Of a stretch of DNA of 47,256 nt, positions 7,475-46,810 are shown in pieces. A model generated the notes under the pieces. The model worked only from the letters and a program-made list of their open reading frames with translations. It did not search any database and was not told the origin of the DNA. The stretch covers positions 1 through 47,256 of the IMG/VR virus record IMGVR_UViG_3300020470_000025. One strand, written 5' to 3'. The first letter of the stretch is position 1; every line of letters starts with the position of its first letter. This stretch comes from a virus. A program made the position numbers and the translations under genes.

Positions 7475-7546
7475 GGTCTCATAGTTAAATGGTTATAACA
7501 TAGCCTTGTCACGGCTAAGTTCCGAGTTCAATCCTCGGTGAGACCG
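7475..7546 (+). tRNA. tRNA-Asp (anticodon GTC)
   Basis: A complete 72-nt cloverleaf. Acceptor GGTCTCA (7475-7481) pairs with TGAGACC (7539-7545), with discriminator G. D stem is GTTA/TAAC with GG in the loop. Anticodon stem TAGCC/GGCTA encloses loop TTGTCAC, giving GTC. T stem CCGAG/CTCGG encloses TTCAATC. No CCA is encoded, so the host must add it. It reads GAT/GAC, common in the phage genes. No integrase gene is present, so use as an attachment site is not supported by the window. Confidence 0.95.
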
Positions 7547-12422: not shown

Positions 12423-12834
12423 AGAAGAATCACTAGAATGGGCGCAGAAAGCGTTCAACAAATTAAAAAATAGAAAGAACATTAAATTTAGATCTAAGCT
12501 TGAAGAGAGTATCGCTGATCTCCTCGAAGGGCTTGGGGTTACCTATGAATATGAATCTACTAGAATACCTTATACCATCCAGCATCATTACAGCCCTGAC
12601 TTTTTACTACCTAACTATGTATATCTCGAAGCAAAAGGGTACTGGGATGCAGCCGATCGTCGTAAAGTCCTCGCAGTTAAGAAGGATAACCCAGACATAG
12701 ACCTAAGAATGGTCTTTCAATCACCATATAATACGATCTCAAAGAGATCTAAAACTACATATGCTCAGTGGTGTGAACGACATGATATACCATGGACTTC
12801 ATACCATGACATTCCACTCGATTGGTTGATTTAA
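12400..12834 (+). CDS. Endonuclease I, Holliday-junction resolvase (T7 gp3-like)
   Basis: Resolves branched DNA before packaging and helps digest host DNA. The PD-(D/E)xK signature is clear: SPDFLLPNYVYLEAKGYW (Asp about 68, Glu-Ala-Lys about 77-79), with an upstream Glu in FRSKLEESIAD. Length 144 matches T7 gp3 (149). It shares a TAATG junction with the following gene. Confidence 0.93.
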   Translation: MSKKKTSKEESLEWAQKAFNKLKNRKNIKFRSKLEESIADLLEGLGVTYEYESTRIPYTIQHHYSPDFLLPNYVYLEAKGYWDAADRRKVLAVKKDNPDIDLRMVFQSPYNTISKRSKTTYAQWCERHDIPWTSYHDIPLDWLI

Positions 12835-13478
12835 TGGATTATAATACCTTCACGCCATTTGGATTACCTTTCTATACAACTATATTATCAGAAGATACTA
12901 GTAGTTTACTAAGTGAAACAGTCAGAGTACCTAACTTAAGCAATAACACTGCTGAAGAGCAAGTTGAGTTTTGGAACAGACTCAACCGCTTTGAAAAGTA
13001 TATGAGGGTATTGGAAAGGCATTCAGAAATTAAGAAGGTCGTATTAGATCATTGGTATAATTTTTATCATAATTATTTCCGGGGAAGTAGAGCTGAGTTT
13101 ATTATCACGACCTCTTGGTTGACAGAAACTAACAAGGGTGATATTATACATGAGCATGATCACAGAAACGCCTTCTATAGTGGCTTACTATATTATGGAG
13201 ATTATGAAGATGATAGTGGTGCATTAGAGTTCGTTAACCCTATGCCTGATCATTTTACTCCTAATATATTAGCTGAACACGGTTTATTCGGATCATTATA
13301 CCAACCCTGGTATATACCACCTAAGCATAATCTACTTATATTCTTTCCAGCGTGTGTAAAGCATAGATGCTATTCTATTAATCAGAATAGACTTTCATGT
13401 GCTTTCAATCTAATGCCGATACCGTCACTCGATGGGAGTGACTCATATTATGACCCACGTTGGTTTATCAATGACTGA
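12834..13478 (+). CDS. Putative 2OG-Fe(II) oxygenase of the HxH/D...H...R phage type
   Basis: ATG at 12834 overlaps the endonuclease stop. Of 214 residues, the C-terminal half has IHEHDHRNAFYSGLLYY (metal-binding His/Asp), then PACVKHRCY (distal His) and NRLSCAFNLMP (Arg and final strand), the pattern of a family of putative 2OG-Fe(II) oxygenases common in marine phages. The substrate is unknown. It occupies the slot between endonuclease and primase-helicase where T7 carries the lysozyme/amidase gene 3.5; no amidase motif is present. Confidence 0.75.
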   Translation: MDYNTFTPFGLPFYTTILSEDTSSLLSETVRVPNLSNNTAEEQVEFWNRLNRFEKYMRVLERHSEIKKVVLDHWYNFYHNYFRGSRAEFIITTSWLTETNKGDIIHEHDHRNAFYSGLLYYGDYEDDSGALEFVNPMPDHFTPNILAEHGLFGSLYQPWYIPPKHNLLIFFPACVKHRCYSINQNRLSCAFNLMPIPSLDGSDSYYDPRWFIND

Positions 13479-15048: not shown

Positions 15049-15238
15049 TATTTATCAACACTATGAACATCCTTGGTATAAATTCAATGCCGAGACTGGA
15101 GAAGTAGGGGAACCTATATACATAAAACCTAATCCACCAAGTAAAGAGGCAGTAAAACGTGCCAAATTTGTCGATAAAACCTACAAATGGAGTGGGAGCA
15201 ATAGTATTCGACCTGGAGACAAACGGTCTTCTAGCTAA
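15002..15238 (+). CDS. 78-residue protein between helicase and polymerase
   Basis: Begins inside the primase-helicase end (ATG 15002 or 15008) and runs past the first codons of the exonuclease gene, both in other frames. The middle (DIYQHYEHPWYKFNAETGEVG) looks like genuine coding sequence. No family recognised. Confidence 0.6.
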   Translation: MNMKLNRNSTRQQTSDIYQHYEHPWYKFNAETGEVGEPIYIKPNPPSKEAVKRAKFVDKTYKWSGSNSIRPGDKRSSS

Positions 15239-15758
15239 TGCAACTCATATACATTGCCTAGCTTTACACTGGCAAGAAGATGATTTCAGTGAAGAATTTA
15301 ATGATGAACCTTATGGGGATGGTACCTTCGATATCAAGGAGGAAGCGCCCATGGGTGGTAACTATGCCATCCACACAGGGTTACAATGGCTCGAGTGTGC
15401 GGACTTTCTTGTCGGTCACAATATTATCGGCTATGATATACCTGTTATTAAAAAGCTCTATTCTTGGTTTAATCCTAGGGGTACTATTGTTGACACTCTT
15501 CTGCTATCTAGGTTATATCATCCTAATTTATTCGATATAGATAAAAACCATAACTGGAAAGGTATGCCATTACAATTATATGGCAGCCATTCTCTTGAGG
15601 CATACGGGTATAGACTCGGAGAATATAAAGGAGACTACGGTAAGACTACCGATTGGAAAAACTGGTCTCAAGAGATGCAAGATTATTGCAAACAAGATGT
15701 AGTTATTACTACTAAATTATGCGACCACTTCCTCCCCTACCTGACTGGGTCAAGTTAG
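15159..15758 (+). CDS. DNA polymerase 3'-5' exonuclease domain as a separate gene
   Basis: Proofreading half of a T7-type family A polymerase. Exo I is IVFDLETNGLL, Exo II is LVGHNIIGYDIP and Exo III is YCKQDVVIT; FGSHALEAWGYRLGE of T7 is matched by YGSHSLEAYGYRLGE, so the line to T7 gp5 is clear. The start is GTG at 15159 (AGAGG nine bases upstream) or GTG at 15192, which would give a T7-like short N-terminus. The gene stops at 15758, 40 bases into the polymerase gene, which is in the -1 frame. I see no classical slippery heptamer in the overlap. Confidence 0.9.
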   Translation: MPNLSIKPTNGVGAIVFDLETNGLLANATHIHCLALHWQEDDFSEEFNDEPYGDGTFDIKEEAPMGGNYAIHTGLQWLECADFLVGHNIIGYDIPVIKKLYSWFNPRGTIVDTLLLSRLYHPNLFDIDKNHNWKGMPLQLYGSHSLEAYGYRLGEYKGDYGKTTDWKNWSQEMQDYCKQDVVITTKLCDHFLPYLTGSS

Positions 15759-17044
15759 AACATCAGGTAGCTGAAATACTTACACAACAAGAAATCCATG
15801 GATGGCGATTTGATGAACAAGCTGCACGGGAACTTGAATCAGCTCTCCGAAGAGAGTATGAGGATACTTCTAAACTATTACGAGAACGCCACGCTTACGT
15901 TAGAGGATCGGAATTTTGTCCTAAACGATCTAATAAACGAACAGGATATAATAAAGGAACTGGAATAACTAAACATATTGAGTGGGATTATAACAATATC
16001 CATTATTCAGTAGATGTTCAAGAATGTTCTTTTACCAAACTTAAGGACTTAAACCCCACCTCACGTGACCATATAGCATGGATTCTACAAACACACTATG
16101 GTTGGACGCCCTCATCAATGACCTTGACAGGGAAACCAGTCATAGACGAAACAGTTCTGAAAGATATTGGGACGGATATTGCTCTTCAATTTCTGACACT
16201 ACTGGATCTGACGAAAAAGTTAGGGATGATATCCGAAGGCGTGAACGCATGGCAGAAGCTTGTTACGAGATCTAGGATACATCACCATTGTTCAGTAGCA
16301 ACATCTACATTTAGATGTGCTCATAGAAAACCAAATTTAGCACAAGTTCCAAGTGATGAAAGATTCAGAAAACTATTTATTGCAAAACCTGGCAGCGTTC
16401 TGGTGGGTGCCGACCTTAGCGGTATTGAGCTCAGGATGCTTGCCCACTATCTCGCCAGATATGATCAAGGACGCTATTCCAAAATCCTCCTTACCGGAGA
16501 CATCCATCAAACCAATGCAGATCGGATTGGAATCACCAGAAGCCAAGTCAAAACAGTCACCTACGCCTTCCTCTACGGGGCTGGGGATACCAAAATAGGG
16601 CATAGTTATGATAAACAATTACCCGATGATCGAGCGAACCAGAAGGGCAGAGAGATTAGGAAAGCTTATATCGATGCCATTCCGGGTCTTAAAGAGTTGT
16701 TGGAGGCAGTACACAAAGCTAGTGAGAGGGGTTTTCTCTACGGACTCGACAATCGTCATATCATCGTTGACTCGAGGCATAAGTCCCTCAATTACTTACT
16801 CCAAGGATCAGCGGCGACAATTGCCAAAAGATGGATGGTTTTAGCTAATGAAAATCTTACTGAAAATGCTAGACAAGTTGCATTCATTCATGATGAATTA
16901 CAATTTGAATGTTCACAGTCAACAAAAGAAGATTTAAAATCTCTTCTCGAACTCACTGCTACACAGGCAGGTGAGTACTATAACATGAGATGTCCAGTCG
17001 CTGCTGAAGCAAAGAGCGGATCCACCTGGGCTGATGTACACTAA
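15719..17044 (+). CDS. DNA polymerase, polymerase domain as a separate gene (T7 gp5 C-terminal part)
   Basis: Replicative family A polymerase. Motif A is VGADLSGIELRMLAHY (Asp232, T7 Asp475). The O helix is KTVTYAFLYGAG (Lys278 and Tyr282, T7 Lys522 and Tyr526). Motif C is IHDE (Asp392, T7 Asp654). TFRCAHRKPNLAQVP matches the T7 RATHAFPNLAQIP site. The segment before NPTSRDHIA, which in T7 holds the thioredoxin-binding insertion, looks shorter, so processivity may not use thioredoxin the same way. The N-terminus begins where T7 leaves its exonuclease domain. Together with the preceding gene it makes one complete polymerase of about 640 residues. Confidence 0.93.
   Translation: MRPLPPLPDWVKLEHQVAEILTQQEIHGWRFDEQAARELESALRREYEDTSKLLRERHAYVRGSEFCPKRSNKRTGYNKGTGITKHIEWDYNNIHYSVDVQECSFTKLKDLNPTSRDHIAWILQTHYGWTPSSMTLTGKPVIDETVLKDIGTDIALQFLTLLDLTKKLGMISEGVNAWQKLVTRSRIHHHCSVATSTFRCAHRKPNLAQVPSDERFRKLFIAKPGSVLVGADLSGIELRMLAHYLARYDQGRYSKILLTGDIHQTNADRIGITRSQVKTVTYAFLYGAGDTKIGHSYDKQLPDDRANQKGREIRKAYIDAIPGLKELLEAVHKASERGFLYGLDNRHIIVDSRHKSLNYLLQGSAATIAKRWMVLANENLTENARQVAFIHDELQFECSQSTKEDLKSLLELTATQAGEYYNMRCPVAAEAKSGSTWADVH
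16912..16920 (+). repeat. TTCACAGTC element, copy 6
   Basis: Inside the DNA polymerase gene, read as Cys-Ser-Gln-Ser-Thr-Lys. Shares a 17-mer with copy 5 in a different reading frame. Confidence 0.65.
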
Positions 17045-17814: not shown

Positions 17815-18016
17815 TAGACTTAACAGTGGTGAGGTAGATGTCAAAGATATTATCACTATCTTTCTAGCCTTACAAAAACAGAATTTTGTTCTTGCAAATT
17901 CTATGATTAACTTAGTAAAAAATTGGCCAAATGAAAACCACCTTTCTATCCCAGCAAGCGAAAGAGTTTCGCATGAAATACAACTTGGGAAGTTCCACGG
18001 CTTTACGAACTCGTAA
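17780..18016 (+). CDS. 78-residue hypothetical protein
   Basis: ATG at 17780 within the end of the exonuclease gene (different frame). Helical, starting MEQDLKLRQISDRL, with VDVKDIITIFLALQKQNF in the middle. Overlaps the MazG-like gene by 86 bases. An upstream ATG at 17714 would deepen the first overlap and is less likely. Function unknown. Confidence 0.65.
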   Translation: MEQDLKLRQISDRLNSGEVDVKDIITIFLALQKQNFVLANSMINLVKNWPNENHLSIPASERVSHEIQLGKFHGFTNS

Positions 18017-18311
18017 GTATCAGAAAGACCTGATTGTTGAGGAGTTCAAAGAGTTTTTGGAAGCTGAAGGTTTCCTATTTATGCATGGTAGGAACCATCA
18101 AGAACATGCATTAAAAGAACTAGCTGATCTTGTTTATGTCTGCTACCAATATGCACAAAACATGGGTTGGTTCTTAGATGAAGCACTAGACCGTGTTCAT
18201 AAATCTAATATGTCCAAACTCGATGAGGACGGTAAACCAATATATCGAGAAGATGGGAAGGTCTTAAAAGGACCAAATTATCAACCACCAGATCTATCTG
18301 ACTTATTTTGA
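17931..18311 (+). CDS. MazG-like nucleotide pyrophosphohydrolase
   Basis: A 126-residue all-alpha NTP-PPase-type protein. The Mg-binding motifs are visible as EEFKEF (EExxE, about residues 37-41) and KELADLVYV (ExxD, about 63-66). Such enzymes hydrolyse (d)NTPs to monophosphates; in cyanophages they are linked to nucleotide recycling, and an effect on host ppGpp was proposed for related genes. The position immediately before the ribonucleotide reductase supports a role in nucleotide supply. Confidence 0.82.
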   Translation: MKTTFLSQQAKEFRMKYNLGSSTALRTRKYQKDLIVEEFKEFLEAEGFLFMHGRNHQEHALKELADLVYVCYQYAQNMGWFLDEALDRVHKSNMSKLDEDGKPIYREDGKVLKGPNYQPPDLSDLF

Positions 18312-18312
18312 A

Positions 18313-19692
18313 ATGACTGCAAGTTTAATATCTCGCACAGGGCGGGTCCAGAATTGGCTGGATAATCCTGAATCAAGACTCCCAGTTTCATGCACTGTCT
18401 TTGTCGTAGAGGATTCTATGGAGGGAAAAGATGGTATCGAAGCAAGCTGGCGCTACGTCAGCCATGGACTCAGATTTGGAGCGGGAGTTGCGGTCCATCT
18501 ATCGAAGCTCCGTCCCAAAGGAGCAGAAAACGGCAAGGGTCTTACAGCTTCTGGCCCTGTATCATTCGCAAAAATCTACTCATCCCTAAATGAAACACTT
18601 AGAAGGGGAGGGGTCTATAAAAATGGTGCTGTTGTTATCCACCTTGACCTTGACCATACCGACATTATTGATTTTCTTGAAACCCCAAGGGCTGAACTCC
18701 CATGGGTCAAGAGGTGCGTCGATATTGATGCGGGAAAATGGAACAACAGTGATAATAAAACAAAGGAAGCCTTACTCTACGGATTGAAGAGTGGAGATAT
18801 ATGGCTTAATAAAATAAAATACGACAACAACGGGGAAAGAATCTATGGTAACGTCTGTCTTGAAGTTTACTTGCCCTCACGCGGTACATGCTTGTTACAA
18901 CATGTCAATCTCGCAGCCTGTGGACCAGGCACCCTCAAGCAGGGTTTCGTTGATGGTATGTCCCAGCTGTGCGAGCTCCATAGCCGGACAGGTGTTGGAG
19001 CAACTGGAGAATACTTGCCGTCTGATATCGACCGACAAGTTGGGCTCGGCGTCCTCGGCCTCGCAAACTTCTTAAGGAGGCATCAAATCACCTATGATCA
19101 ATGGGGAAGAGCTTTAAGTTCGGTTAATAGCGGTGGTTCAATAGTAACAGCTGCTGAACACCTAGCTAAAATATTTAAAGAAGCTATTGATGCCGCTGCA
19201 GATATAGCTAGAGAAAATAATATGGTAAGAGCTTTTGCTATAGCTCCTACCGCATCCTGTTCTTATCGTAGCCAGGATAGCGATGGGTACACTGCTACCC
19301 CTGAAATAGCACCACCTATAGCTCGCTCTGTGGACCGTGATAGCGGTACCTTCGGAGTACAGCACTATGAATACGGCGACGTTGAAATCGCCTCAGAAGT
19401 TGGATGGGACGCATATAAGCGTGTAGCAGACCAAACGATGATAATGTTCAACAATACGGGACTTCTTCACGGATACTCATTTAACTCTTGGAGTGATGTT
19501 GTAGCCTACGATCGTGAATTCGTGGAAGAGTGGCTGCTATCACCGCAGACCTCCCTTTACTACTCCCTGCAAGTAATGGGCGACACACAAGATAAGACCG
19601 ATGCGTATGCAGCATTAGATCAGAGCGAAGTCGATGATTACTTACAGGATATTCTCGGAAACGAGCCTATAACCTGTGATTGTCAAGAATGA
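18313..19692 (+). CDS. nrdA: Ribonucleotide reductase large (alpha) subunit, compact cyanophage type
   Basis: Reduces ribonucleotides to deoxyribonucleotides for phage DNA. Active-site motifs: Cys27 (PVSC), N-V-C182-L-E184 (the NxCxE radical cysteine and glutamate) and a Cys in the GTCLLQHVNLAAC stretch. A phosphate-binding PTASCSYRS follows. Tyr416-Tyr417 (SLYY) is the radical-relay tyrosine pair of class I enzymes. A CxC pair (Cys455, Cys457) at the C-terminus is for thioredoxin or glutaredoxin. At 459 residues it lacks the ATP cone. The family was once annotated as class II; the tyrosine pair and the adjacent small subunit argue for class I. Confidence 0.9.
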   Translation: MTASLISRTGRVQNWLDNPESRLPVSCTVFVVEDSMEGKDGIEASWRYVSHGLRFGAGVAVHLSKLRPKGAENGKGLTASGPVSFAKIYSSLNETLRRGGVYKNGAVVIHLDLDHTDIIDFLETPRAELPWVKRCVDIDAGKWNNSDNKTKEALLYGLKSGDIWLNKIKYDNNGERIYGNVCLEVYLPSRGTCLLQHVNLAACGPGTLKQGFVDGMSQLCELHSRTGVGATGEYLPSDIDRQVGLGVLGLANFLRRHQITYDQWGRALSSVNSGGSIVTAAEHLAKIFKEAIDAAADIARENNMVRAFAIAPTASCSYRSQDSDGYTATPEIAPPIARSVDRDSGTFGVQHYEYGDVEIASEVGWDAYKRVADQTMIMFNNTGLLHGYSFNSWSDVVAYDREFVEEWLLSPQTSLYYSLQVMGDTQDKTDAYAALDQSEVDDYLQDILGNEPITCDCQE

Positions 19693-20420
19693 TGAGGAAA
19701 ACACCATACCAAAAATTAATGGACCGTAAGCGGAAGTGGTCCCCCGTAAAACCCACCGCCGGAGTATTTAAAGATGGATCAGAAGATGCTATTAGACGTG
19801 CATTGGCAATACGTCACATGGAGCTACCTGTTGGAGAATTCATCTCTGAAGCACTTGAGAAAGAGGTTCCCGATCACGCTCGGGAGCTTCTGCTCTCGAA
19901 TGTTAAAGATGAGGAGCGACACGATCTCGCATTGGGGTATATTGTAGATGCTTATGGTATCAAAGAAGATTCACAGTCAGAAGTGGAGGCAAAAAGAATA
20001 AGAGATGCATGGATGGCACACCCTGACCATACAATTACCAAGGCTCTCGTGGCTGAAAGAGCAATCTTCTTTGTTCTACTCCCTTTCTTTCGGTTTAATG
20101 GCTGTGCTGCTTTACGCACAGTTTCGGCAGACATATCTCGGGACGAACAGATCCACGTCGGATGTAATTCTCTTGTATGCCATGAGTTGGGGCTATCTCC
20201 TTCTTCTTCTTTGGATAAACTTAGGAAGGCCACCATTAACTGGGTACTAGAACCACTAGGTATAAATACTACCGATAAATATTTGGACAAAAAATTTTGG
20301 CTGGATGCTAGCGATCGCTTAATGTATGAGGGTAAAGCCCCAGAGTTTTCTGACACCAGAGCAGCCCGTATGCCAGCGTTCTTTGAGCATAGCAATGTCA
20401 ACTTACCCCAATACGCTTGA
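19689..20420 (+). CDS. nrdB: Ribonucleotide reductase small (beta, R2-like) subunit
   Basis: Ferritin-like dimetal protein that makes the radical for the alpha subunit. ATG at 19689 forms an ATGA overlap with the alpha stop. Metal ligands: an N-terminal Glu (about 50-57), E75-x2-H78 in DEERH, Glu123 in VAERAIFF, and E153-x2-H156 in RDEQIHVG. The residue four after the first His, where E. coli has radical Tyr122, is Leu82 here. The protein (243 residues) is shorter than usual R2 (about 320-375). It may use a non-tyrosyl metal oxidant; the subclass is undecided. Confidence 0.85.
   Translation: MMRKTPYQKLMDRKRKWSPVKPTAGVFKDGSEDAIRRALAIRHMELPVGEFISEALEKEVPDHARELLLSNVKDEERHDLALGYIVDAYGIKEDSQSEVEAKRIRDAWMAHPDHTITKALVAERAIFFVLLPFFRFNGCAALRTVSADISRDEQIHVGCNSLVCHELGLSPSSSLDKLRKATINWVLEPLGINTTDKYLDKKFWLDASDRLMYEGKAPEFSDTRAARMPAFFEHSNVNLPQYA
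19970..19978 (+). repeat. TTCACAGTC element, copy 7
   Basis: Inside the RNR small subunit, read as Asp-Ser-Gln-Ser. Shares ATTCACAGTCAGA with copy 3. It is the last copy; none was found in the structural region. Confidence 0.55.
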
Positions 20421-25037: not shown

Positions 25038-25565
25038 ATGTCAGCTTCGGAATTAGTAGAGAAGTCTTTCGTCCTCGATTTAATTGCTACTCATGATAAA
25101 CCTCTATTCAAAAGCGTACCAGCTTCTGGACCAAGAGGTGATCAACCTGCTAGCGAATTCCTTAAAAGATATATGAACAAAGGAGTCGAGGAACTATGGG
25201 AGACACAAAGAAAATTACAAGCATTCGGAAGGGAACCAAACCCAGATGATGCACCTTATAGACAACCACCACAACCTGGCGATCCTGATTATACACCACC
25301 GCCACCTCTACCTAAACCTAAGCCAGCTAGTTATACAACTGAGGATCCTAACCTAAGAATAAGGAAAGGTGGTATAGGTAAGGCTGATGATACGGATCCC
25401 GATATGAGATTTAGAATGCCTGTTGTAGAAGATCAAGGTTATCCAATCGATCCTAATATGCAGGTAGGTGACCCACATAATTATAAAAATAACTTCTACA
25501 AAGAACATCCTAAAGAACATTTAGATCAATTACCCCTTGATTGGGATAAACAGATTTTAATATGA
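25038..25565 (+). CDS. Proline-rich hypothetical protein upstream of psbA
   Basis: A 175-residue protein. A charged N-terminal helix is followed by a proline-rich centre ([16 protein letters not shown], about residues 88-105) and an acidic, Asp/Tyr/Asn-rich end. No domain recognised. Its stop overlaps the psbA start (ATGA), so D1 synthesis is probably coupled to translation of this gene. Confidence 0.75.
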
Positions 25566-26593
25566 GCTCTATCACATTAGCACCCAGTCAGAATAATTGG
25601 AATCAGTTCTGCAAATGGGTAACAAGCACTGACAACAGACTATATGTAGGTTGGTTCGGTGTACTTATGATTCCATGTCTCATTACTGCAGCTACTTGTT
25701 TTATTATCGCTTTCATCGCAGCACCGCCTGTAGACATAGACGGGATAAGAGAACCAGTGGCTGGCTCACTACTCTATGGAAACAACATCATCTCAGGGGC
25801 CATCGTCCCGTCATCAAATGCTATCGGTCTTCACTTCTACCCAATCTGGGAAGCTGCAACCCTCGACGAGTGGTTGTATAACGGAGGACCATATCAACTT
25901 ATTGTATTCCACTTTCTCATCGGCATCGCAGCTTACATGGGACGACAATGGGAACTTAGTTATCGACTAGGGATGAGGCCTTGGATTTGTGTTGCTTACT
26001 CAGCGCCAGTTGCTGCATCATATGCAGTCTTCCTGGTATATCCTTTCGGACAAGGAAGTTTCTCTGACGGTATGCCGTTGGGGATCTCAGGAACGTTCAA
26101 CTTTATGTTTGTCTTTCAAGCGGAACATAATATCCTTATGCATCCTTTCCATATGTTGGGAGTTGCGGGGGTATTTGGTGGGGCTTTGTTCGCTGCTATG
26201 CACGGATCATTGGTCTCTAGTTCCATTGTTAAGGAAACAACAGAAACTGAATCACAAAATTATGGCTACAAGTTTGGTCAAGAAGAAGAGACCTATAACA
26301 TTGTAGCTGCACACGGATATTTTGGGAGGTTAATATTTCAATATGCGTCTTTCAATAATTCTCGTTCTCTTCATTTCTTTCTGGCTACTTTCCCCGTGGT
26401 ATGCATATGGCTTACCTCTATGGGAGTCAGTACTATGGCGTTTAACCTCAATGGTTTCAATTTTAACCAATCAATCCTCGATGCCTCCGGTCGTGTGGTC
26501 CCAACTTGGGCTGACGTACTCAACCGAGCTGACTTAGGTATGGAGGTTATGCATGAAAGGAACGCACACAACTTTCCATTGGACTTAGCATAA
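25562..26593 (+). CDS. psbA: Photosystem II D1 protein
   Basis: Replaces the photodamaged host D1 so that light energy continues to feed phage growth. A 343-residue protein with five membrane helices. Key residues (canonical numbers are one higher): Tyr160 in [12 protein letters not shown] (TyrZ), Asp169 (Mn cluster), His189 and His197, Gln129 (the Gln130, low-light form) and YASFNNSR with Ser264. C-terminal Mn ligands are [14 protein letters not shown]. The protein ends exactly at the Ala that CtpA normally exposes, so no C-terminal extension is made. Less AT-rich than neighbours, consistent with host origin. Location between scaffold and capsid matches P-SSP7-type phages. Confidence 0.99.
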
Positions 26594-26725: not shown

Positions 26726-26832
26726 GCGGCTCGGTAGTCGAACCAGTAGAAGCCACAGGCAGCCGCGTCCGTTCATTCCCAGTGGGAACGCATGAAACCA
26801 CATCATGGAACGGGGGTGTGGTACTATGGAGG
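26726..26832 (+). promoter_or_regulatory. Structured leader RNA with pseudoknot, glutamine-II (downstream-peptide)-like riboswitch candidate
   Basis: Upstream domain: GCGGCT (26726-26731) pairs with AGCCGC (26761-26766). Main domain: P1 CCGTTC (26769-26774) with GAACGG (26808-26813) encloses P2 TTCCC/GGGAA (26776-26780, 26784-26788) and P3 CATGA/TCATG (26791-26795, 26803-26807). The P3 loop ACCACA (26797-26802) is complementary to TGTGGT (26817-26822), a 6-bp pseudoknot. The ribosome site GGAGG (26828-26832) follows six bases later. CGTTCA, GGGAACGCATG and GGAACG recall the downstream-peptide/glutamine-II class, which precedes short YRG peptides in marine cyanobacteria and phages. Class assignment is from memory. 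Confidence 0.6.
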
Positions 26833-26910: not shown

Positions 26911-27273
26911 ATGAAAAGAATAGCCTTGATTCTGGCATCGGTATTTACGACAGCAGGCGCTGCTTACGCAGGCCCTTACGTCAACGTAGAGTCGAACGCC
27001 TCATACACAGGATCTGACTATAAGAATAGAACCACTGATTTCCATGTAGGATATGAGGGTGGTAATGATACCTTTGGATATTATATTCAAGGAGGACCAG
27101 CAGTAGTTGCAGCAGATGCAGTTGACACTGATACACAGATGTCAGGTAAAGTCGGTGCTGATGTAAGTGCTACTGACAAACTCTCCTTCTATGGAGAAAT
27201 TAGTGTACTTACTGTTGACGGTGATGCCGACAATGAGTGGGGTACTAAGATAGGTACAAAGTATACTTTCTAA
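26911..27273 (+). CDS. Small secreted beta-barrel-like (porin-like) protein
   Basis: A 120-residue protein with a Sec signal peptide (MKRIALILASVFTTAGAAYA, cleavage before GPYVNVE). The mature part alternates polar and aromatic residues in short strands separated by Gly/Asp turns (FHVGYEGG, FGYYIQGGP, KVGADVSAT, LSFYGEISV), and ends in Phe (GTKYTF) like outer-membrane proteins recognised by the BAM machinery. Such proteins occur in several marine cyanophages; the role is unknown, possibly altering the infected cell's outer membrane. Confidence 0.75.
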   Translation: MKRIALILASVFTTAGAAYAGPYVNVESNASYTGSDYKNRTTDFHVGYEGGNDTFGYYIQGGPAVVAADAVDTDTQMSGKVGADVSATDKLSFYGEISVLTVDGDADNEWGTKIGTKYTF

Positions 27274-45905: not shown

Positions 45906-46091
45906 ATGACTAATGCCGTTGAAAAAGCTCTAGAAGAAGTCAGAAAACGTAGTAAAGAAAGATTAGAAATTTGTGGTAATTGTGAGCATTTGAGAGAAAG
46001 TATTAATCAATGTAAAATTTGTGGTTGTTACCTTCCTCTAAAAGTGCTTATGCCGACCCAACGTTGTCCCTTAGACCCCCCTAAATGGTAA
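45906..46091 (+). CDS. 61-residue zinc-ribbon-like protein
   Basis: Pattern CGNCEHL...CKICGCYLPLK...CPLDPPKW gives paired cysteines of a small metal ribbon ending in a conserved-looking CP...KW. Small phage proteins with this layout (DUF6171-like) are common near tail genes; function unknown. Starts directly after the preceding stop. Confidence 0.8.
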   Translation: MTNAVEKALEEVRKRSKERLEICGNCEHLRESINQCKICGCYLPLKVLMPTQRCPLDPPKW

Positions 46092-46810
46092 TGCATACTG
46101 ATTATATTGTTACTCAATTTTTCACCCCTGAACAACTAAAGAAAGTATATTATTATGCTGGACAACTAGAGTTCGAAGACGGTGTAAATGCTTTTAAGAT
46201 AGAAGATCCTAAGTTAAAAGAAGAAGCTTATAGTCTGAAAAGGAACCATGAAGCAGCAATAAGAGCAGATATCTTCGTGGATTTTTTAGAAAATAAGAGG
46301 TTTTCTGAGGTACTTCGTAATGCCATTTATCCTAGACATATAGTAGATTGTGTAATAAGTGTATATAGAAAAGGTGATTATTATAAAGCTCATAATGGGC
46401 CTACACATGGTGATCATCTTACATCTATAATGCTTACACCTGAAGAAGACTATACAGGAGGAGATTACTGTTTATTAGTTGATGGTGAAGTTAAACGATT
46501 TAAATTAAAAGCAGGTGAAGCTATTACACATTATGCTGGATTACCTTTTCATATAGATACTGTTACATCTGGCGTTAAAATGACTTTAGAATTTATTACT
46601 TATTCTCAGGTAACTAGAAAAGAACATAGAGATAAGTTAATAAACTTGAAGCTCACTACTGACAAATGGAAAGATATAACTATTACTTCAGTGAATACAT
46701 TAGAGGAATTCCGTGATAATGAATTATTAACTACTCTAAGAGAGATTCAGAATATAGAAAGAGAGTATGTCAATTTTAATACCACGCCCGAAACTGCCGA
46801 AACCACTTGA
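46091..46810 (+). CDS. 2OG-Fe(II) oxygenase, PKHD-type
   Basis: ATG at 46091 (TAATG junction) is preferred over an in-frame ATG six bases earlier. Of 239 residues: THGDHLTSIMLTPEEDYTGG (HxD plus the PKHD-type strand), LPFHIDTVTSG (distal His) and VKMTLEFITYS, where a Lys stands where PKHD enzymes usually have Arg. Third oxygenase of this fold in the genome. Substrate unknown. Its last 44 bases overlap the next gene. Confidence 0.82.
   Translation: MHTDYIVTQFFTPEQLKKVYYYAGQLEFEDGVNAFKIEDPKLKEEAYSLKRNHEAAIRADIFVDFLENKRFSEVLRNAIYPRHIVDCVISVYRKGDYYKAHNGPTHGDHLTSIMLTPEEDYTGGDYCLLVDGEVKRFKLKAGEAITHYAGLPFHIDTVTSGVKMTLEFITYSQVTRKEHRDKLINLKLTTDKWKDITITSVNTLEEFRDNELLTTLREIQNIEREYVNFNTTPETAETT

Follow-up and report, generated by a model that had tools for sequence, protein, structure and literature searches.

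The window analyzed here, that is, the whole stretch of 47,256 bases from an uncultured virus record, contains two genes on the plus strand for a ribonucleotide reductase (RNR) that is assigned by its sequence to class Ø (Cyano SP, proposed subclass If). The first gene (18313–19692) encodes a catalytic (alpha) subunit of 459 amino acids without an ATP cone, as detected by tblastn, phmmer and PF02867, and the second (19689–20420) encodes a small ferritin-like (beta) subunit of 243 amino acids (phrog_6799, E 6.6e-128). The small gene lies immediately downstream of alpha, its ATG start (19689) overlapping the alpha stop codon as ATGA, and an alternative TTG start at 19680 would lengthen the protein by three residues. 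Directly upstream of alpha is a MazG-like nucleotide pyrophosphohydrolase (17931–18311, plus strand; phrog_671, E 1.1e-35; PF01503, E 1.3e-7), and the pair is flanked by the exonuclease/MazG genes on one side and by the head genes on the other. The presence of psbA together with a T7-like gene order identifies the source virus as a cyanopodovirus.

Several other features of this small phage genome were recorded. A Glutamine-II riboswitch (RF01704, 55.6 bits; 26767–26822, plus strand) sits between psbA (25562–26593) and a conserved small ORF (26911–27273), DNA polymerase A is divided into two overlapping ORFs for the exonuclease and the polymerase (15159–15758 and 15719–17044), as also annotated in P-SSP7, two genes encode 2OG-Fe(II) oxygenases (12822–13478 and 46085–46810), and a tRNA-Asp (gtc) is found at 7475–7546 on the plus strand.

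Class Ø has been placed by phylogeny as ancestral to classes I and II. Its beta subunit was identified in P-SSP7 by Harrison et al. in 2019, who reported that the radical tyrosine is missing, described E-E-H-E-E-H as the ligand pattern and D/D as the second-sphere residues, and put forward subclass If for this Cyano SP RNR (PMC6370689). Burnim et al. renamed the clade Ø in 2022, solved the structure of the S-CBP4 alpha (7URG), described Phe or Leu at the tyrosine site, a terminal Tyr and a CxC tail, observed that the proteins can be unstable without metal, and considered the radical mechanism not classifiable without biochemistry (PMC9531940). In a 2026 preprint class Ø RNR was still described as uncharacterised (PMC12918982). 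The missing tyrosine is thus a published finding of Harrison 2019 and Burnim 2022. A preliminary description of this DNA, made from the sequence alone, had stated that the family was reassigned from class II to class I, in agreement with PMC6370689, and had called its metal chemistry open, as do PMC9531940 and PMC12918982; its term class I suits the class I-like architecture, whereas the current name is class Ø rather than simply class I.

The RNR of the window closely resembles both of these systems. Like S-CBP4, it combines a minimal alpha carrying a Tyr dyad and a CxC tail with an adjacent short ferritin-like beta in which Leu/Phe stands in for Tyr122 and a terminal Tyr is present, and nothing material differs between them. 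The P-SSP7 (Cyano SP) enzyme has the same E-E-H-E-E-H and D/D pattern, is 70.5% (alpha) and 70% (beta) identical, and shows no difference of substance. In some records the class Ø reading frames are broken, namely alpha and beta of P-RSP2 (L089) and beta of S-CBP4 (L087, NC_025464), either by decay or by sequencing errors.

The alpha subunit is approximately 67% identical to that of S-CBP4 by tblastn, and a phmmer search matched it to 7URG with an E-value of 6.8e-214, compared to 1.7e-13 for the next PDB chain. After 7URG and 6dqw, the latter deposited as a ribonucleoside-diphosphate reductase alpha chain, the best PDB matches are B12-dependent RNRs. Only the barrel domain was found in the Pfam scan (PF02867, E 7.5e-22), and the ATP cone PF03477 is absent from this protein in a scan whose controls worked. 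Conservation was assessed over 186 alphas. Cys27 (18391–18393), the active-site redox cysteine paired with Cys193, is Cys in all 178 residues seen at this position, and the S-CBP4 counterparts of the two are C30/C196 (PMC9531940). The thiyl-radical cysteine motif N180-V-C182-L-E184 (18850–18864) is invariant. The radical-transfer dyad Tyr416-Tyr417 (19558–19563) is found in all 184 alphas in which these positions are present, and its equivalents in the S-CBP4 cryo-EM model, Y420/Y421, are stacked on the catalytic Cys (PMC9531940). The C-terminal reductant motif C455-D-C457 (19675–19683) has the form CxC in 89 alphas and CxxC in 95. All these sites are on the plus strand, and the Tyr pair, NxCxE, terminal CxC, length of 459 residues and lack of an ATP cone are as the preliminary description had given them.

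For the beta subunit, a set of 233 distinct sequences that are 36–100% identical to that of the window was collected from viral contigs, annotated phages and genome bins. Counting from the ATG at 19689, and with all codons on the plus strand, the metal ligands identified by conservation and profile alignment are Glu45 (19821–19823; ligand 1, Asp84 in E. coli and E42 in P-SSP7, PMC6370689), Glu75 and His78 (ligands 2 and 3, in D74-E75-x-x-H78 at 19908–19922, where D74 is the second-sphere acid), Glu123 (20055–20057; ligand 4), and Glu153 and His156 (ligands 5 and 6, in D152-E153-x-x-H156 at 20142–20156, where D152 is the radical-pathway Asp, Asp237 in E. coli). None of the 233 betas deviates at any of the six ligands or at D74 or D152. 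The preliminary description had these ligands right and omitted only E45. Trp17 (19737–19739), which aligns with the radical-pathway residue Trp48 of E. coli, and Tyr242 (20412–20414), by position the equivalent of E. coli Tyr356, are each present in 232 of 232 betas; Tyr242 is followed only by Ala243, and in all of the betas counted the C-terminal Tyr has one to five residues after it. At Leu82 (19932–19934; H+4), the E. coli Tyr122 position, 232 betas have Leu and one has Phe. Conservation of these features over 233 distinct sequences is more than chance.

The position of Leu82 depends on the register with class I small subunits (R2). The alignment of betas could not be matched usefully to the E. 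coli NrdB sequence alone, and an R2 profile was needed. In a profile-profile alignment with 128 R2s, Tyr122 falls opposite L82 and Trp48 opposite W17, and each of the six ligands meets its counterpart; the score of 31.4 compares with 15.8 for the reversed profile and with no more than 21.2 in any of 60 column shuffles. The hhalign probability is low (19%, E 0.0012) and this match, weak alone, rests on the agreement of all ligands. The claim that Leu occupies the Tyr122 position is borne out by this register. Tyr84 (19938–19940; H+6), which the preliminary description had named as a possible occupant of the radical position that would overturn its reading, aligns two residues past it; this residue is Tyr in 222 betas, Phe in nine and Trp in two, the Phe and Trp variants keeping all ligands, and Met in cyanobacterial homologues. 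Given such natural variants, Tyr84 is no obligate radical site.

The structure prediction proposed in the preliminary description as a check yielded an R2 fold for beta (AlphaFold2, 62 window and locus sequences; pLDDT 90.7, pTM 0.87). The best Foldseek matches of the model are mostly R2 subunits, along with other ferritin-fold dimetal oxygenases, only one match passing an E-value of 0.001. With VIA-align, the best 50 PDB entries are all RNR small subunits (216–238 residues aligned; Z 18.5–20.3, exceeding the level at which the tool warns for helical bundles), and entries of classes Ia to Ie differ by only about two Z units, which means that the subclass cannot be read from the fold. In sequence, class Ic betas of Chlamydia trachomatis come nearest among PDB chains, at E-values of about 0.06–0.1 that are not significant alone, and no class Ø beta was found by sequence among PDB entries. 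The window beta has no Pfam match, and PF00268 stays below its cut-off in relatives scanned singly; at E-values up to 1 it is reached by 24 of 62 class Ø betas (best E 6.7e-7). The usual C-terminal tail by which class I betas dock to alpha is absent.

A homologue of each subunit, covering most of its length, was found in 56 phage records, mainly cyanopodoviruses, plus a siphovirus and a freshwater Microcystis phage. In Microcystis phage Mic1 (L082), alpha and beta are approximately 12 kb apart with unrelated genes between them. When GTDB contigs were scanned with a pattern, 11 class Ø matches appeared in bacterial bins (L092–L102), labelled as marine bacteria such as TMED88, MED638, UBA1860, CPC44 and others. 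Ten of these contigs are colinear with the T7-like cyanophage module of the window and the eleventh (L101) has phage-like neighbours, while a separate full-length RNR is located on another contig in four of the bins and occurs in pieces in a fifth. These apparent marine bacterial members, from MAGs or SAGs, look like phage DNA. A search of plasmids yielded no class Ø alpha.

The idea that class Ø is viral only, which the 11 GTDB matches had suggested, was ruled out by two chromosomal copies detected in a full-length protein search of 292 cyanobacterial genomes, one of them on a 472-kb contig. Their neighbours are ordinary cellular genes, e.g., prolyl-tRNA synthetase, and with full branch support both lie outside the clade of marine phages. 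The two genomes are approximately 92% identical in DNA and therefore represent one lineage. Their alphas are 47–49% identical to that of the window and end in CxxC, and their betas keep E45, D74, E75, H78, Leu at H+4, E123, D152, E153, H156 and the terminal Tyr.

In both cyanobacterial genomes, metE, a small ORF, alpha, beta and another small ORF follow one another on one strand, metE being the gene for cobalamin-independent methionine synthase. A cobalamin riboswitch, followed by a predicted hairpin, is located approximately 650 bases before the metE start; its scores in the two genomes, 60.9 and 61.5 bits, exceed the gathering score of 31.5. At one locus (L522, minus strand) the riboswitch occupies 13849–13706, metE 13056–10810, alpha 10288–8912 and beta 8896–8180; at the other (L523) the riboswitch occupies 14043–13900, also on the minus strand. 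Alpha begins approximately 100 bases from the preceding ORF, and a promoter of its own is possible. The small ORFs flanking the class Ø genes of L522 (10823–10392 and 8096–7611, minus strand) share an AWxxYLxxGRG-like stretch, and no Pfam family matches them beyond its cut-off.

A B12-dependent class II NrdJ, recognised by TIGR02505, is likewise present in each of the two genomes; this match ruled out an earlier impression, based on PF02867, that class Ø was their sole RNR. Repression by such riboswitches of B12-independent RNR and methionine synthase isozymes that coexist with B12-dependent forms was proposed previously (PMC545781). Linkage of riboswitch, metE, alpha and beta in genomes that also have NrdJ is most simply read as class Ø serving as a B12-independent backup in these cyanobacteria. 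No cobalamin riboswitch was found in the window by an Rfam scan, and for the phage enzyme B12-independence would be inherited from this argument about its relatives; we regard it as highly probable. A B12-dependent alpha, which the preliminary description had listed as a result that would contradict it, is made unlikely by the operon.

To compare the metal site with those of known subclasses, 191 R2s, mostly from bacterial genomes and some viral, were grouped by first ligand and tyrosine-site residue. All R2s with Asp as the first ligand have Tyr (141 sequences). The 17 Glu/Tyr sequences, of the class Id type, all have Lys four residues after ligand 1 (ligand 1+4), and Cys or Ser before ligand 2. 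All 12 Glu/Leu sequences have Gly at ligand 1+4 and Glu before ligand 2, and 11 of them have Tyr at H+6; the 21 Glu/Phe sequences are mostly similar to the Leu group, and some may not be RNR subunits. With L82 and E45, the window has neither the radical Tyr nor the Asp first ligand of classes Ia and Ib. Its signature of E45, G49 (19833–19835, plus strand), D74, L82 and Y84 is the Glu/Leu pattern with Asp in place of Glu, an outcome that is Ic-like and not Id-like. Position 49 also divides class Ø: in a tree of 168 taxa it is Gly in all 85 members of the podovirus clade of the window, whose alphas end in CxC, and Lys or Arg in 78 of 82 members of the sister siphovirus/Syn5 clade, whose alphas end in CxxC.

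Like class Ic R2s of the C. trachomatis type (MnIV/FeIII), the window beta uses Glu as its first ligand, lacks a radical-site tyrosine, and carries Gly at ligand 1+4, an acidic residue ahead of ligand 2 and Tyr at H+6; C. trachomatis NrdB is among its top sequence and fold matches. However, the acid before ligand 2 is Glu in class Ic (E119 in C. trachomatis) and an invariant Asp in the 233 betas, the window beta is approximately 100 residues shorter and lacks the C-terminal docking tail, and class Ic proteins are full-length NrdBs recognised by PF00268, which does not recognise the window beta. Since published beta trees set the clade apart from class Ic (PMC6370689), we do not file it there. 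Class Id R2s of the Flavobacterium johnsoniae type (Mn2 III/IV) share the Glu first ligand and the R2 fold but keep the tyrosine and have Lys at ligand 1+4, where the window has Leu and Gly.

Considering all of the above, the RNR is probably best explained as a class Ø enzyme of a psbA-carrying cyanopodovirus with an O2-activated, tyrosine-less, metal-centred initiator, most likely Mn/Fe. Because Leu replaces the tyrosyl-radical residue of classes Ia and Ib, the dinuclear site formed by E45, E75, H78, E123, E153 and H156 would itself store the oxidising equivalent. The hole may then pass from W17/D152/H78 via Tyr242 to Tyr417-Tyr416 of alpha and to Cys182, which would start nucleotide reduction, while the C-terminal CxC tail would re-reduce C27/C193; the enzyme would need no B12. 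As cofactor, the likeliest candidate is of the class Ic type (MnIV/FeIII), with Mn in a centre activated by O2. That the initiator is tyrosine-free and metal-centred seems very probable from the residues, and the choice of Mn/Fe in particular is a tentative one, a little short of an even call. The interpretation in the preliminary description was partly supported, being right in kind and already published: its non-tyrosyl oxidant stands in that the radical site lacks tyrosine, and the Mn or mixed-metal identity is a candidate that we too can only infer. Its further suggestion that such an enzyme is suited to iron-poor oceans fares less well. Cyano SP viruses are anti-correlated with predicted iron, but so are the class Ia RNRs of cyanomyoviruses, and both trends were ascribed to host distribution (PMC12918982); the tyrosine is also missing in the freshwater Microcystis phage and in cellular cyanobacteria. 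The iron rationale is thus not discriminating and, though possible, is weak and without specific support.

Other readings differ in where the oxidant resides and how it is generated. A class Id-like initiator, with a dimanganese MnIII/IV centre that free superoxide activates, would fit the Glu first ligand that class Id and class Ø have in common, the Lys/Arg of the sister clade at the very site of the class Id lysine, and the superoxide that photosynthesising hosts produce. We consider it unlikely in the window, given that its entire clade has Gly49, that Asp rather than Cys/Ser precedes ligand 2, and that the class Id tyrosine is essential even though it forms no stable radical (PMC8463856), whereas class Ø has Leu. 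Somewhat less likely again is an iron-only enzyme in which a high-valent diiron centre, with no tyrosyl radical, acts as direct oxidant: the ligand set fits iron, and first-sphere ligands alone cannot separate Mn from Fe, but no class I RNR with a stable diiron oxidant and no tyrosine is known to us. Class Ie is metal-free with DOPA and requires the tyrosine. The known initiators that work without a tyrosyl radical, those of classes Ic and Id, contain Mn (PMC8463856).

A radical on another beta residue is far more doubtful. Tyr84 would be a candidate, being Tyr in 222 of 233 betas just two residues past the Tyr122 position; its natural replacements and its register speak against such a role, as does the fact that Tyr-less Ic-like R2s, too, typically have Tyr at H+6. 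We give equally little credence to a class II-like enzyme with an adenosylcobalamin-using alpha and an accessory ferritin-like protein. Alpha is indeed nearer to class II by BLAST (PMC9531940), as the PDB matches also indicate, and marine cyanobacterial hosts have class II RNRs and make B12 (PMC6370689). However, the Tyr-Tyr dyad of S-CBP4 stacks beside the catalytic cysteine, at the site of the class II adenosyl pocket (PMC9531940), a beta with strictly conserved ligands is present, and the cellular homologue is tied to a cobalamin riboswitch and B12-independent metE in genomes that also have NrdJ. On the residues compared, the R2 signature appears to favour an Mn/Fe centre that is activated by O2 and resembles class Ic, rather than one resembling class Id.

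With regard to the Lys/Arg of the sister clade, its position is that of the class Id lysine (Lys71 of F. johnsoniae), which has been proposed to attract superoxide (PMC8463856). The Gly/Lys49 division suggests different activation in the two clades, and no more than suggests it because it represents a single old split. In a broader proposition, which we advance as speculative and improbable in its entirety, class Ø would be a B12-sparing RNR kept by cyanobacteria under cobalamin-riboswitch control and carried by phages, with a tyrosine-free initiator that is neither Ic nor Id and two activation regimes: Gly49/CxC (O2, Mn/Fe-like) and Lys or Arg49/CxxC (with a lysine that steers superoxide as in class Id).

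New, modest contributions of this analysis are the natural Tyr84 variants, the tabulated R2 signatures, the Gly/Lys49 split and the phage origin of several binned members. The most useful of these contributions is the riboswitch-linked cyanobacterial operon, which is, as far as we know, the first regulatory evidence that class Ø is B12-independent, and which bears on the question of whether class Ø generates its radical with B12 or with a metal. For the question of which metal, the Gly/Lys49 split supplies a natural pair of variants whose predicted metals and oxidants are opposite.
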